Positions 2,342 through 13,758 of a stretch of 41,409 nt of DNA are shown here, one piece after another. The position numbers and the translations under genes were made by a program. How positions within the stretch are numbered: the first letter of the stretch is position 1; each line of letters begins with the position of its first letter. The notes under the pieces are model-generated. The model worked only from the letters and a program-made list of their open reading frames with translations. It was not told the DNA's origin and made no database searches. Source of the DNA: Planctomycetota bacterium (GTDB taxonomy: Bacteria > Planctomycetota > Planctomycetia > Pirellulales > PLA5); NCBI GenBank assembly GCA_003576845.1, contig QEVJ01000042.1:1-41409 (forward strand), in the 5' to 3' direction.

Positions 2342-5300
2342 CTACAGACCGATCTGACCAACGTCGGCCGTCAGAGAATGGACCGCGCCCGCCGAATGCG
2401 ACAAGGCTCGGCTCGACCGCATGGGCCTCCTCGTCGCGCGGCCATCCGCGGCGCTCACGATCGCTTCATCGACCGCTCGCAAGACGACACGCTGCGGTTC
2501 CGCGCTCGTCGATCGCACGGCCGCGCGCACCATCGCTCGCGCCGCCGCCGAGATCGTCGCCACGTCCACCGCCCCGCTCGGAGAATCGTCCGCGAATCGC
2601 GACGGCACTCCCGCAACCAGCGCCGACGGACCTTGTGCCGCCACGGTAATCGTCGCGTGCGCGGTGCCGTCCGTCGCGCCGACGTCGTTGTTGTCGACGG
2701 TCGTTTCGCCCAGCCCCAAGTAAATCGGATGCGCCACGCCCGACTCGCCGACGATGATCTTGAACGCGCCGATGGACAGCACGATATCGGTCGAAAGACC
2801 CGCGGAGCCCGCGAGCGCTTCGAGCGTCACCGATCCGAGCAAGAACGCATCCGCCGTCGGATCGTAACCTTCGTCGAGCAGGCCCATGAATCCGCCCGTC
2901 CCGTCCCAGGCCGCATGAATCGCGTTCGTGCTCGTGTAGAGCGTTCCCGTCTTCGCGCCGACGACGAGCGCTTCGTCGCCGACGCCGTTCGGGTTCAGTG
3001 TGCCGGCCGACACCCACGCTTCGGGCCAGCGCGTGTCGACGATTTCGTCGTCGAAATTCGTCGCCACGATGTTTGGATTGGCAATCGTGCTCGCCGTTGC
3101 CTTCACCACGCCCTCGTTCGTCGCCGACACATCGAGCGCCAAAGTCTGCATGACTTCATAATCGCCCATCGACGCCCACACGTAAAGCGTCACCGAATCC
3201 TCCGGCCCGTCGAGTTGGACACTCGGTACCGACTCCGGCAACTCGCCGCCGCCGGGCGTGCTGCCGGAAGTCGTGATATAGATTCTCGCCGGCGTCTCGG
3301 TAAGCAACGACTCGCCACCGTCCTCGCCGCCCGACTCGCCGCCCAACATCTCCTCTCCGCCGCCCATCATTTCGCCGCCGCCCCCACCGCCGCCTCCCAT
3401 CAAAGATTCGCCGCCGTCGCAGTCGCACCGGTTCCGCAAGAGAACGAGGTCCTTGACGTTGACTTTTCCGTCTCCGTTTACATCGCCTTGCAACGGCAAC
3501 GCCGACGTGCGCCCGAAGTTGTTTGCGAGAATCGACAGGTCGGCGCGATCGATGCTTCCGTCGACGTTCAAGTCGCCCATGGCGGCAGAGACCGAGTTCA
3601 GCGCGTCGAAACGGCCCGAACCACTTACCTGATCGTATCCGGTTGTACCAATGTCGATCGCGGTTCCGTTGAGAATCGTCGTGACCTGGGCGGGCGTCAG
3701 ATTCGGATTCGCGTCCAGCACCAACGCCGCGATCGCCGCCACGTGCGGCGCGGCGGCGGACGTGCCGAAAAACGGGTTCTGATCGAAGTGTCCTAATTGG
3801 CCTATGCGTGTTTCCACTCCGTCGATTCCAGCCCCATCCAAGCTGTTCCGCTGCACGTTTGTTTGTGTGGCGAAGTTCGTGTAAACGGTCGAGGGTCCGC
3901 GCGAGCTATAGAAGGCCACGTCGTCGTTTCCTGGATCGCCGGAATTGATTGCAGCAACGGCCACCGCGCCGTTCGCCGCCGGATGACCAAAAACCGCATC
4001 CCCGATGGTCGTGTACTGCTGCCCAGAGTCGCCGCGCGTCCAAAGCTCCAGTTCGCGCGCGGCGCCGCTGACGCGATTGATTGCCACATAGGCCAAAAGG
4101 GAAGTTGTCGTCGATGGATTCGTGAACTCGACGAACTCGTGAGGCGGAAACCCTCCTGCGGCTTGATTATCCGTGCTCTGGTCGAGAATGAAATTGTCGG
4201 AAAAACGGCGCAGGTACAAATCGTAATTGTTCGTCGATGCGCCGAACGCATCGCTCCACTGCAAATCGGCACGAAAGGCTCCTTCTGGCGGGATTTCGAC
4301 GATTTGCCCGATATTGGTTCCCGCTCCAGAATCAAAGTCGTGCCAAAAGCCGTTTCCTGAGTTTGGTCCTTGATTGTACGCGGCTTGGTAATGATCGGGA
4401 CTCTCGTTACCCGCGGCGCTCACATAGACGACGCCGTTTGAAATAGCGCTTGCGACAGCCTGCGCTACGGGCCCGTCCTCGAAGTACGGTTCGTTGAACC
4501 ATCCAAGATCGTCGACAATGACTTTGACCCCCTGTCCTACGAGCCAGTTGATCGAACCCGCCATCTGCAGGGTCGTGGCGGGACCGGAAAAGAAGAGCTG
4601 CGCGCCGGGCGCAAGGTCGTGAACGATCTCCAGCATCGCCGTGCCTTCGTTCCCGCTTCCGGGCCGAGTAGGATCGATCGTGATCGATGTCGGCAAATCG
4701 AAGTTCGGCGAACCCTGCACCGCGGAGCGGTTCGTCACCCCGTCGGAAATCACGCCAACGCGGGTCCCGCTGCCGTCGATGCCCTGAGTCGCAAAGCGGC
4801 TACGCGCCGTATTCGAGCGGAGGATTCCATCGCCCGCGCTGTTTACGGACCCGGTGCGCGTCGTCGGCGCGAGCGGCACGTCGATGGAATAGACGAACGG
4901 TTCAGCGGCGACTTTCACCAGGTTCGCGCCGGAAATCCACCCTTCGATGAGGGTCACGCTTTCGTACGCGTAAGACGCTGTCGAGTACGAAAGTCCCAGG
5001 GCGATCAGTTGCGCCACAGCGTCCACTTCGCGAGCGTCCACGCGCACGGTGACCAACAACGCGCCAGAATCATTGAATCGCAGTCCTGGCACGGTTGCTA
5101 AATCGACGTCGCCCTTTGCCGCGAGGTCGGACGCGGTCCGAAGGTTCTTGGATAGCTTGCCGCGGATTCCATCCTGTGCTTGAGAAACTTCGAGCAGAAC
5201 CGATGGCCCCATGTCAACCGGCGAATTGCTCGTCTCGGACTGTTTCGAGAACCGGCCAAGGCGTGCTCGCGTTACCGGCAAGCAGCGTGCGGCCCTCAAG

Positions 5301-5408
5301 CTGTTCAATGCTGAATTGGCGTGAACGTTTTCGCGTGTCCACTGGCAACAAAGAAAGCTCGCGATCACGTACAGCGATTCGACGAAGTATTCGTGCCGTC
5401 CATTCCAT
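2342..5408 (-). CDS. Secreted S8-family (subtilisin-like) peptidase with dockerin, apparent frameshift near the N-terminus
   Basis: The gene is read in two frames. The start is ATG at 5408 with AAAGGAG at 5415-5421. The first frame encodes an N-terminal FSIEQLEGRTLLAG motif, the planctomycete LEPR-type surface-protein signature, and stops at a TGA at about 5214. The main body continues in the frame displaced by one base, down to 2342. The body has a peptidase domain with VGVISDGV (Asp codon near 4744), NEGTAMLEIVHDLAPGA (near 4648), SAAGNES, and FFGTSAAAPHVA (Ser near 3760). The usual catalytic His of HGTH is Glu here. Then follow a dockerin type I pair (DLNVDGSIDRADL and DVNGDGKVNVKDL, about 3430-3582), a Gly/Glu low-complexity linker (3300-3420) and a C-terminal beta-sandwich-like region, perhaps cohesin-like. 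The break may be a sequencing error or a real mutation. The upstream PEP-CTERM gene overlaps it by 44 bases. Confidence 0.8.
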
Positions 5409-6138
5409 TGTGGACTCCTTTCTTTATTCGTAAAGTATGAATCGCGGATATGCCGGCACCGAATGACACTAGCCCAACTAGCATCAACGTAACGGCAGAT
5501 GGTTCGGGTATCGGCTGCAACGCATCGATCGCCGCTTCGATCCGGAACCACCGAGGACCGGTTGTCACGGTGCCAATTTGGAAGCCATTGATGACCAAAG
5601 TAGCCGTTGGCCGATCAACAGATGTCAACACGTAAGGGTCGAATTGAGTCGGAAGTTCATCCGCTATGAGGCCAGTCAACGATAAATCCTGCCAATGAAA
5701 CCGGAATCGCGGAAATTCGACCGCGAAGGGAAATATTCCAGCTATTTGTCCGGAAATGAAGTCGCCGAGCGGCGGTATTGGCTCTCCGCCCAGCGACACG
5801 CCGAGAAGCACATCGTTGCCCAAGTCCAGCGCGAATCCGAGAGATGGGTCCGTGCGAAACTCGTGTGGGCCAATTCGAATGAAGAATCCAAGTTCGCCCG
5901 CGTGCGGACCAAACTCGTACCGCCCTCGCTGCGGATCGTCCGGCAACAAATCGACCGCGTCGAGGTCGTAAGCGAACGTCCCAGAGAACGGCATCCCGCT
6001 TTCGATCCCATCCGGCAGCACGTTGAACGGATCGCTCACGTCGATCGTGCCGCTGAGGCGGAAACGGATGATTTCTCCCGCGGCGCTGCCAGTGAGCAGC
6101 GTCGCCACGATCAGGATCGTCAGGAATCGAAACATCAT
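5365..6138 (-). CDS. PEP-CTERM sorting domain protein
   Basis: The product is 257 aa. The start is ATGATG at 6138 with AAGGAG at 6147-6152; an upstream in-frame extension lacks signals. The N-terminus MMFRFLTILIVATLLTGSAAG is a signal peptide. The C-terminus carries IPEPSAVTLMLVGLVSFGAG, then a transmembrane stretch and basic RIKK, that is, a PEP-CTERM anchor processed by exosortase and linked with exopolysaccharide-type surface display. The middle (for example FRLSGTIDVSDPF, FSGTFAYDLDAVDL) is beta-rich and resembles other short PEP-CTERM proteins of unknown function. Oddly, about 17 residues follow the basic cluster, where the family normally stops, and they overlap the ribosome binding site and start of the protease gene. 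A one-base slip would give a stop right after the basic cluster. Confidence 0.85.
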   Translation of the reverse strand: MMFRFLTILIVATLLTGSAAGEIIRFRLSGTIDVSDPFNVLPDGIESGMPFSGTFAYDLDAVDLLPDDPQRGRYEFGPHAGELGFFIRIGPHEFRTDPSLGFALDLGNDVLLGVSLGGEPIPPLGDFISGQIAGIFPFAVEFPRFRFHWQDLSLTGLIADELPTQFDPYVLTSVDRPTATLVINGFQIGTVTTGPRWFRIEAAIDALQPIPEPSAVTLMLVGLVSFGAGISAIHTLRIKKGVHNGMDGTNTSSNRCT

Positions 6139-6630
6139 CGTTGCATCTCCTTCCTCGCGTCGAGGAAGCCTGAGGAATCTATCATAGCGCCCCCCCCCCC
6201 GTGTCAATCGTCTGGTCGAAAAAACGATGGCGGAAAATTGACGCATCAAAAACGAGTTACCTGTGGTTTAGTGAACCTCACCGGGGCACCGCAAGCGCGT
6301 GGGGTAAATGCCCCTGGTGCGGCGGACCGCGTGATCGCCGGACGGCCTGTGAGCCGCGTGGGCATGAGCGCCGATCGGGGTTCTCGCCGTTGCCGGCAGG
6401 CGCGGGTTCAACGGTTAGAAACGTTGCGGCATTAGGCGGGCGTGAGAATACGCGACCGGAATTAGAAAAAGGGCGACCCGCAGGCGTGAGGAAAGGAAGC
6501 AGTGACCGCGGGCCGGCGCGACGGGTCCGCCACCATCCTTTCATCTTCATCACCACCCCCACTTCTGTCAACGAATTTCCTCCCGACACGGATAATCCCG
6601 TGGCCGGTTCGAGCGGCTTTCGCGTTCGAA
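6139..6630. promoter_or_regulatory. 492-bp gap: promoter region of the PEP-CTERM gene with an 11-C tract
   Basis: No convincing gene is present. The gap separates the kinase end (6631) from the PEP-CTERM start (6138), both minus strand. Eleven consecutive C (6190-6200; G on the coding strand) lie 52 bases upstream of the PEP-CTERM start codon, a place where length change could alter promoter spacing. The remainder shows no repeat or RNA that I can recognise. Confidence 0.5.
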
Positions 6631-12417: not shown

Positions 12418-13758
12418 TTAAGCCAAAATCCCCTCGACGACCTTGCCCGGCGATAGTCGCACCGGCCGATTCTGTCGGTCGTGCATCTCGGTATGCGGAT
12501 CGATTCCCAGCAAATGCCACACGGTTGCCAAAAAGTCCGCCGGGCTTACCGGGCTGTCCTTGACGTACGCGCCCTTCGCGTCCGAAGCGCCGAAGATCGT
12601 GCCGCCGCGCGTTCCACCGCCTGCGAGCACCGTCGTATACGCGTCCGGCCAATGATCGCGCCCGCGGTCCTTGTTGATGACCGGCGTGCGGCCGAATTCG
12701 CCGGTGTTCACCACCAGCGTCGTGTCCAACAGCCCGCGGTCGCGCAAATCCTCGACGAGCGCCGCGAACGCCTGCTCCATCGGCGGCACGCGGTGCTTGA
12801 GCGTGTTCGCGATGTTGCTGTGGTGATCCCAGGCTTGATTGAATTCGTTGTAGCCGACGAACCGCACGCCGATCTCGACCAGCCGCCGCGCGAGGAGCAG
12901 CGACTGCCCCATCTTGGTGCGGCCGTAGCGATCGCGCGTCTTGTCCGACTCGCGCGTCAGATCGAGCGCTTCGCGAACCCGCGGATCGGTCAGCAATTCA
13001 TACGCGGTCCGGCTGAACAACCCGCGGCTCCGCACGGGCGCCGCGTCCATGTCGCGCCGCAGCGCGTCGAGGTTTTTGAGCAGTTCGTACCGCGACCCGA
13101 CCCGCTCCGGCGACATCGACTCCGGCAGCGACATCGCCGGCGGACGGAAGTCGGGCTTTTGCGGCTCGCCCGAGATGAGCAGCGGATCGTACAGTCCGCC
13201 CAAGAAACCGCCGTACTGCCCGGGCATTCGGTTCGATGGACCGGGAATGCTCAGCCACGTCGGCAGCGAAATGCTCGTCGGCAGCCCAGCCTGCGGCGGT
13301 TCGAGATAGTTGAGTACGGCCCCCGGCCCGGGAAAGTCCTTCGCGTCGGCTTCGCGGTCCTGGTTCGGCTGATCGGTCGAACCGGTGAGCGTGATGTAAG
13401 TTCCCGCGATGTGATTGTTGAACCCGTGCGTCATCGACCGCACGAGCACGAGGTCGCCGGCAACCTTCGCGCACGCCTGCATCGGCTCGCCGAGCCGCAT
13501 TCCGCCGACCGCGGTGTCGATCGGCTTGAACTCCCCACGCACCTCGGCCGGCGCGTCGGGCTTCGGGTCCCACAAGTCGATATGACTCGGCCCGCCTTGC
13601 AGCAGCATGAAGATGCAGCTTTTCGCCGCGCCTCGCCGCCGTGGTTCGTGCTGTTCGTTATCGGCCGCGGACGCCTGAGTTAGACGCGACGCCAACGCCC
13701 CCGCGCCGCCGAACACGCTCAACGCCCCCACGCGCAACACGTCCCGGCGATCGAGCAT
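12418..13758 (-). CDS. DUF1501 family Tat-exported protein
   Basis: The product is 446 aa. ATG at 13758 is chosen because AAGGAG lies at 13765-13770 and the N-terminus MLDRRDVLRVGALSVFGGAG is a twin-arginine signal. Hallmarks of DUF1501 include CIFMLLQGGPSHIDLWDPKP, SMTHGFNNHIAGTYITLTG, VNTGEFGRTPVINKDRGRDH and a C-terminal LLGIDPHTEMHDRQNRPV. The family is related to sulfatases and alkaline phosphatases and is abundant in planctomycetes, usually paired with DUF1549/DUF1553 cytochrome-type proteins. Here that partner is absent and the downstream gene is a tandem hydrolase. It is periplasmic; the reaction is unknown. Confidence 0.92.
   Translation of the reverse strand: MLDRRDVLRVGALSVFGGAGALASRLTQASAADNEQHEPRRRGAAKSCIFMLLQGGPSHIDLWDPKPDAPAEVRGEFKPIDTAVGGMRLGEPMQACAKVAGDLVLVRSMTHGFNNHIAGTYITLTGSTDQPNQDREADAKDFPGPGAVLNYLEPPQAGLPTSISLPTWLSIPGPSNRMPGQYGGFLGGLYDPLLISGEPQKPDFRPPAMSLPESMSPERVGSRYELLKNLDALRRDMDAAPVRSRGLFSRTAYELLTDPRVREALDLTRESDKTRDRYGRTKMGQSLLLARRLVEIGVRFVGYNEFNQAWDHHSNIANTLKHRVPPMEQAFAALVEDLRDRGLLDTTLVVNTGEFGRTPVINKDRGRDHWPDAYTTVLAGGGTRGGTIFGASDAKGAYVKDSPVSPADFLATVWHLLGIDPHTEMHDRQNRPVRLSPGKVVEGILA

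Follow-up and report, generated by a model that had tools for sequence, protein, structure and literature searches.

The DNA analysed here, called the window below, is a stretch of 41,409 nt belonging to contig QEVJ01000042.1 of the Planctomycetota bacterium assembly GCA_003576845.1, a draft of 289 contigs and 7.05 Mb. On its minus strand are two adjacent genes preceded by a promoter-like element (Table 1). The downstream gene is predicted to code for an exported S8 (subtilisin-like) peptidase with a dockerin, as a rule made as one chain, in which the normal order would be a LEPR-type surface motif, a pro-domain, the S8 domain, the dockerin and a C-terminal domain. The upstream gene codes for a PEP-CTERM protein. 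Since the start of the peptidase gene lies inside the end of the PEP-CTERM gene, the two are probably co-transcribed as a two-gene operon. The homologue of the peptidase gene in a second planctomycete genome, G021, is likewise preceded by a PEP-CTERM gene.

Table 1. Position of the genes, of the expected frame switch and of the promoter-like element in the window.
Feature	Position	Strand	Remarks
LEPR ORF of 64 codons, N-terminal part of the peptidase gene, ended by TGA	5214..5408	-	Motif FSIEQLEGRTLLAG
S8 peptidase and dockerin type I body, 956 aa	2342..5212	-	Displaced by +1 from the LEPR frame; predicted model has a subtilisin fold
Interval expected to hold the surplus base (frame switch)	5214..5282	-	Placed from motif and stop; not pinpointed
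PEP-CTERM protein gene, upstream	5365..6138	-	44-nt overlap with the start of the peptidase gene
Promoter-like TTGACA-C-G11-CGC-TATGAT, candidate phase-variable promoter	6181..6207	-	Spacer of 15 nt; 42 nt in front of ATG 6138

The two reading frames of the peptidase gene

The ATG at 5408, which has a strong Shine-Dalgarno sequence (AAAGGAG) in front, opens a frame that contains QFSIEQLEGRTLLAGN and is terminated by the TGA at 5216-5214. The frame of the peptidase is open from about 5614 to the TAG at 2344-2342 and is displaced from the former by +1, (5408-5212) mod 3 being 1. The earliest ATG of this frame is that at 5212, located one base past the TGA. The whole span from 5408 to 2342 measures 3067 nt, that is, 3 x 1022 + 1. 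A first-pass annotation of this DNA had placed the LEPR motif in the 5408 frame with a TGA near 5214, described the peptidase body as displaced by one base and counted 3067 bases with remainder one, and these three observations were confirmed. It was not possible to place the frame switch within the overlap by codon statistics, because this stretch is compositionally atypical and both frames score alike.

Downstream of the stop, the body runs uninterrupted for 956 codons and has a gene-like GC content by codon position, 0.62/0.51/0.74. It was recognised above the cut-off by the profiles of the S8 subtilase family (PF00082, 59.4 bits against a cut-off of 21.8) and of dockerin type I (PF00404, 34.4 bits against 22.9). 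The predicted structure of its first 544 residues had a mean pLDDT of 78.6, and when this model was used for a fold search the matches were dominated by subtilisins, Csp subtilases being also present.

The N-terminal motif was searched in the six frames with the strict pattern [FLIVM]x[LIVMF]ExLExRx[LMV][LM], which gave one match in the window and one in a further 400 kb of this genome. The looser LExRx[LMV][LM] gave 3 matches in 441 kb versus 0 in shuffled DNA, and a chance origin was discarded on account of this rarity. The profile of the planctomycete extracellular (LEPR) motif, PF07595, gave the short ORF 13.9 bits, under the Pfam gathering score of 25.5, and the consensus and the equivalent position of the motif are shared with the homologues that carry it in frame; therefore, we call it LEPR-like only. 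The window protein resembles the Planctomycetota LEPR-motif S8 peptidases (PF07595 plus PF00082, often with dockerin PF00404) in the order of motif, pro-domain and subtilase and in having a dockerin, and it differs from them in its sub-threshold PF07595 match and in the frame broken between motif and pro-domain.

Regarding the Asp-His-Ser triad, the Ser is present (GTSAAAPH) and the Asp region reads VGVISDG. It is noted that the residue aligned with the catalytic His of subtilisin, in the HGT motif (window 4600-4680, minus strand), is Glu in 39 of the 41 motif-bearing family sequences, inside NEGTAM/DEGRAM, and Lys in the remaining 2. A paralogue in the same genome (L002, G000:C97:1895-3193) has Lys in place of the His and reads GSAASA where the Ser motif would stand, so that the catalytic Ser is missing; it is probably inactive. 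From these residues, the family may be active by another arrangement or may be partly pseudo-enzymatic.

Relatives and the origin of the break

A search of more than 650 planctomycete genomes gave homologues with identities as low as about 30%. The two closest relatives having the N-terminus, which belong to Planctomycetota bacterium KLAP142 (L051) and to Isosphaeraceae bacterium KatS3mg108 (L081, main contig of 4.8 Mb), are about 45-47% identical and have motif and body in a single frame, as do 23 further distinct loci, giving 25 homologous loci in all. Every homologue with a recognisable LEPR motif has it in frame except the window gene and that of G021; in some homologues no such motif was recognised in any frame. 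In the G021 gene (L021), the LEPR motif and the pro-domain run in one frame as far as NFAGLTGAG and the break occurs at a GGGG run before VKVGVIS, about 440 nt further in than the window break and with the opposite displacement. No orthologue above about 47-51% identity was found among the more than 650 genomes, and the only congener compared (G001) had no close one. Single-sequence scans of genome-contig and viral-contig collections gave no relatives, and an alignment-based scan of contigs gave six. Judged against these distant relatives, the break appears to be private to the window gene.

We consider it very probable that the gene is broken by one surplus base located after the LEPR motif and ahead of the pro-domain, as a private one-base indel due to either mutation or assembly error. 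In such a case, ribosomes starting at 5408 would produce only a peptide of 64 residues, and the body, if produced at all, would come from re-initiation at the ATG 5212, without the export motif, and would remain unexported. With no decay visible in the body, the indel must be very recent or else be absent from the organism as an error of assembly or sequencing, and these two possibilities have near-equal odds. On the other side, breaks occur in two of the few closest homologous genes, and relaxed selection could also explain this.

The first-pass annotation had left three options, error, mutation and programmed frameshift, and had suggested a comparison with orthologues. The comparison, with the closest relatives being only about 45-47% identical, gave no conservation of the break at the 25 in-frame loci; error and mutation are maintained and programmed frameshifting is not. 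If the base were an error only, the gene of the cell would be one open frame, and to this we assign somewhat less than an even chance. The undecayed body, the relatives without a break and the fragmentation of the draft into 289 contigs agree with it, but there is no long homopolymer at the break site and the other long genes of the window are intact. A real recent mutation, that is, an incipient pseudogene or a null allele within the population, possibly tolerated since the operon would be only sometimes expressed, comes very near to an even chance. It is favoured by the G11 tract in the promoter spacer of the window operon and by the PEP-CTERM and S8 pair of G021, where the peptidase gene has a break of its own and the leader of the PEP-CTERM gene contains the simple repeat (TC)11 (L148, G021:C161, minus strand). 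However, these are just two cases and the second could be an assembly error too.

A programmed +1 ribosomal frameshift joining the LEPR N-terminus to the body is scarcely credible. The body is intact, and at the end of the overlap, where the frames meet, the base after the TGA is C, a weak context for a stop and similar to that of the programmed +1 frameshift of prfB, in which the CTT codon re-pairs well in +1. In contrast to prfB, the window gene has GGT before the TGA, a poor codon for +1 re-pairing, and neither a slippery codon nor a Shine-Dalgarno-like stimulator; inspection of the sequence and folding against shuffles detected no slippery site, prfB-like signal or unusual RNA structure at the break, the folds being no more stable than the shuffles (z of 0.39, 0.38 and -0.43). 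Since the relatives carry the gene unbroken and the 25 loci need no frameshift, a private mutation or an assembly error is indicated instead, and programmed frameshifting was rejected. The reading as two genes by design, in which TGACATG would couple a short LEPR peptide to a cytosolic peptidase with a start of its own, is very improbable as well. A single base separates the stop from the start codon, as would be expected of it, but the relatives make one chain, the body holds a pro-domain and a dockerin, which are features of exported proteins, and there is no Shine-Dalgarno sequence in front of 5212.

Another apparent frame break was seen in the same assembly at L114 (12043-14632, G000:C110), near 13675, where the two halves of a long gene are open in different frames. 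A scan based on a codon-model Viterbi was too noisy, its tuned version gave L114 as the one convincing additional case, and a strict version found nothing in this assembly. The frequency is roughly one detected break per 400 kb scanned, which fits error or mutation.

The poly-G promoter-like element upstream of the probable operon

The frame break in itself is ordinary and of little weight, apart from telling annotators that both fragments belong to a single gene; the part worth following is the poly-G promoter upstream. On the minus strand, the sequence in front of the operon reads TTGACA-C-GGGGGGGGGGG-CGC-TATGAT, followed by GGAAGGAG and the ATG at 6138. The arrangement TTGACA-N15-18-TATNAT occurs 1 time in the window, with an expectation of 0.01. 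Apart from the G11, no poly-G tract in the 7.05-Mb assembly reaches 10, and the one other tract, of 9 G, is not promoter-like. A long homopolymer is placed between the -35 and -10 hexamers, as in homopolymer-spacer phase-variable promoters. In porA of Neisseria meningitidis, a poly-G tract in the -35/-10 spacer makes a phase-variable promoter (van der Ende 1995, as cited in PMC5084427), with tract lengths such as 12G (PMC4235727). The window element is like that of porA in having TTGACA and TATGAT with a spacer of mostly G11 upstream of an exported-protein gene, and unlike it in belonging to a planctomycete and in being a candidate identified by its layout. An incomplete literature search found no report of porA-type promoter phase variation for the phylum.

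When TTGACA...G8...TATNAT was searched in 296 genomes of the order, six occurrences were found in five genomes and 0 in the reversed control; this control tests the promoter context only, and tract lengths and downstream genes are more telling. The tracts are 8 to 15 long; genome G109 has another two promoters, imperfect ones, with tracts of 14 to 16. Besides the window genome, four genomes of the order show the layout in front of genes whose products are predicted to be exported. The genes that follow the tracts code for PEP-CTERM proteins in the window and at L142 (above the Pfam cut-off), LEPR proteins at L144 (above the cut-off) and L193 (by motif), DUF1573-like proteins at L140 and L197 (both below the cut-off, L197 with a C tract in its -35/-10-like spacer), beta-rich secreted-looking proteins at L143 and L184, a lipoprotein-like protein at L145 and a small membrane protein at L185. 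This last case shows that the pattern extends beyond large surface proteins. Many further long G tracts of those genomes lie outside promoters.

It is an even chance, in our estimation, that the operon is a contingency locus in which slippage of the G11 would switch the PEP-CTERM protein and the LEPR-dockerin protease on and off, and that the poly-G-spacer promoters in front of exported proteins would mark a group of phase-variable surface genes not yet described for the order. If the locus is of this kind, the frame break would be a null allele tolerated in an on/off gene. Homopolymer phase variation is familiar mainly from host-associated pathogens. Should PEP-CTERM, LEPR and other exported proteins of this sort be switched in the same way by free-living planctomycetes, the resulting clonal surface diversity could be tested directly from the tract lengths in existing reads.

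Promoter spacers with poly-C were also considered as part of the poly-G pattern and rejected, the 4 sites having short tracts (8-9 C) and lacking the same gene bias. The poly-C spacer sites are found in front of no clear gene, a tRNA-like stretch and genes resembling those of anti-sigma-factor antagonists.
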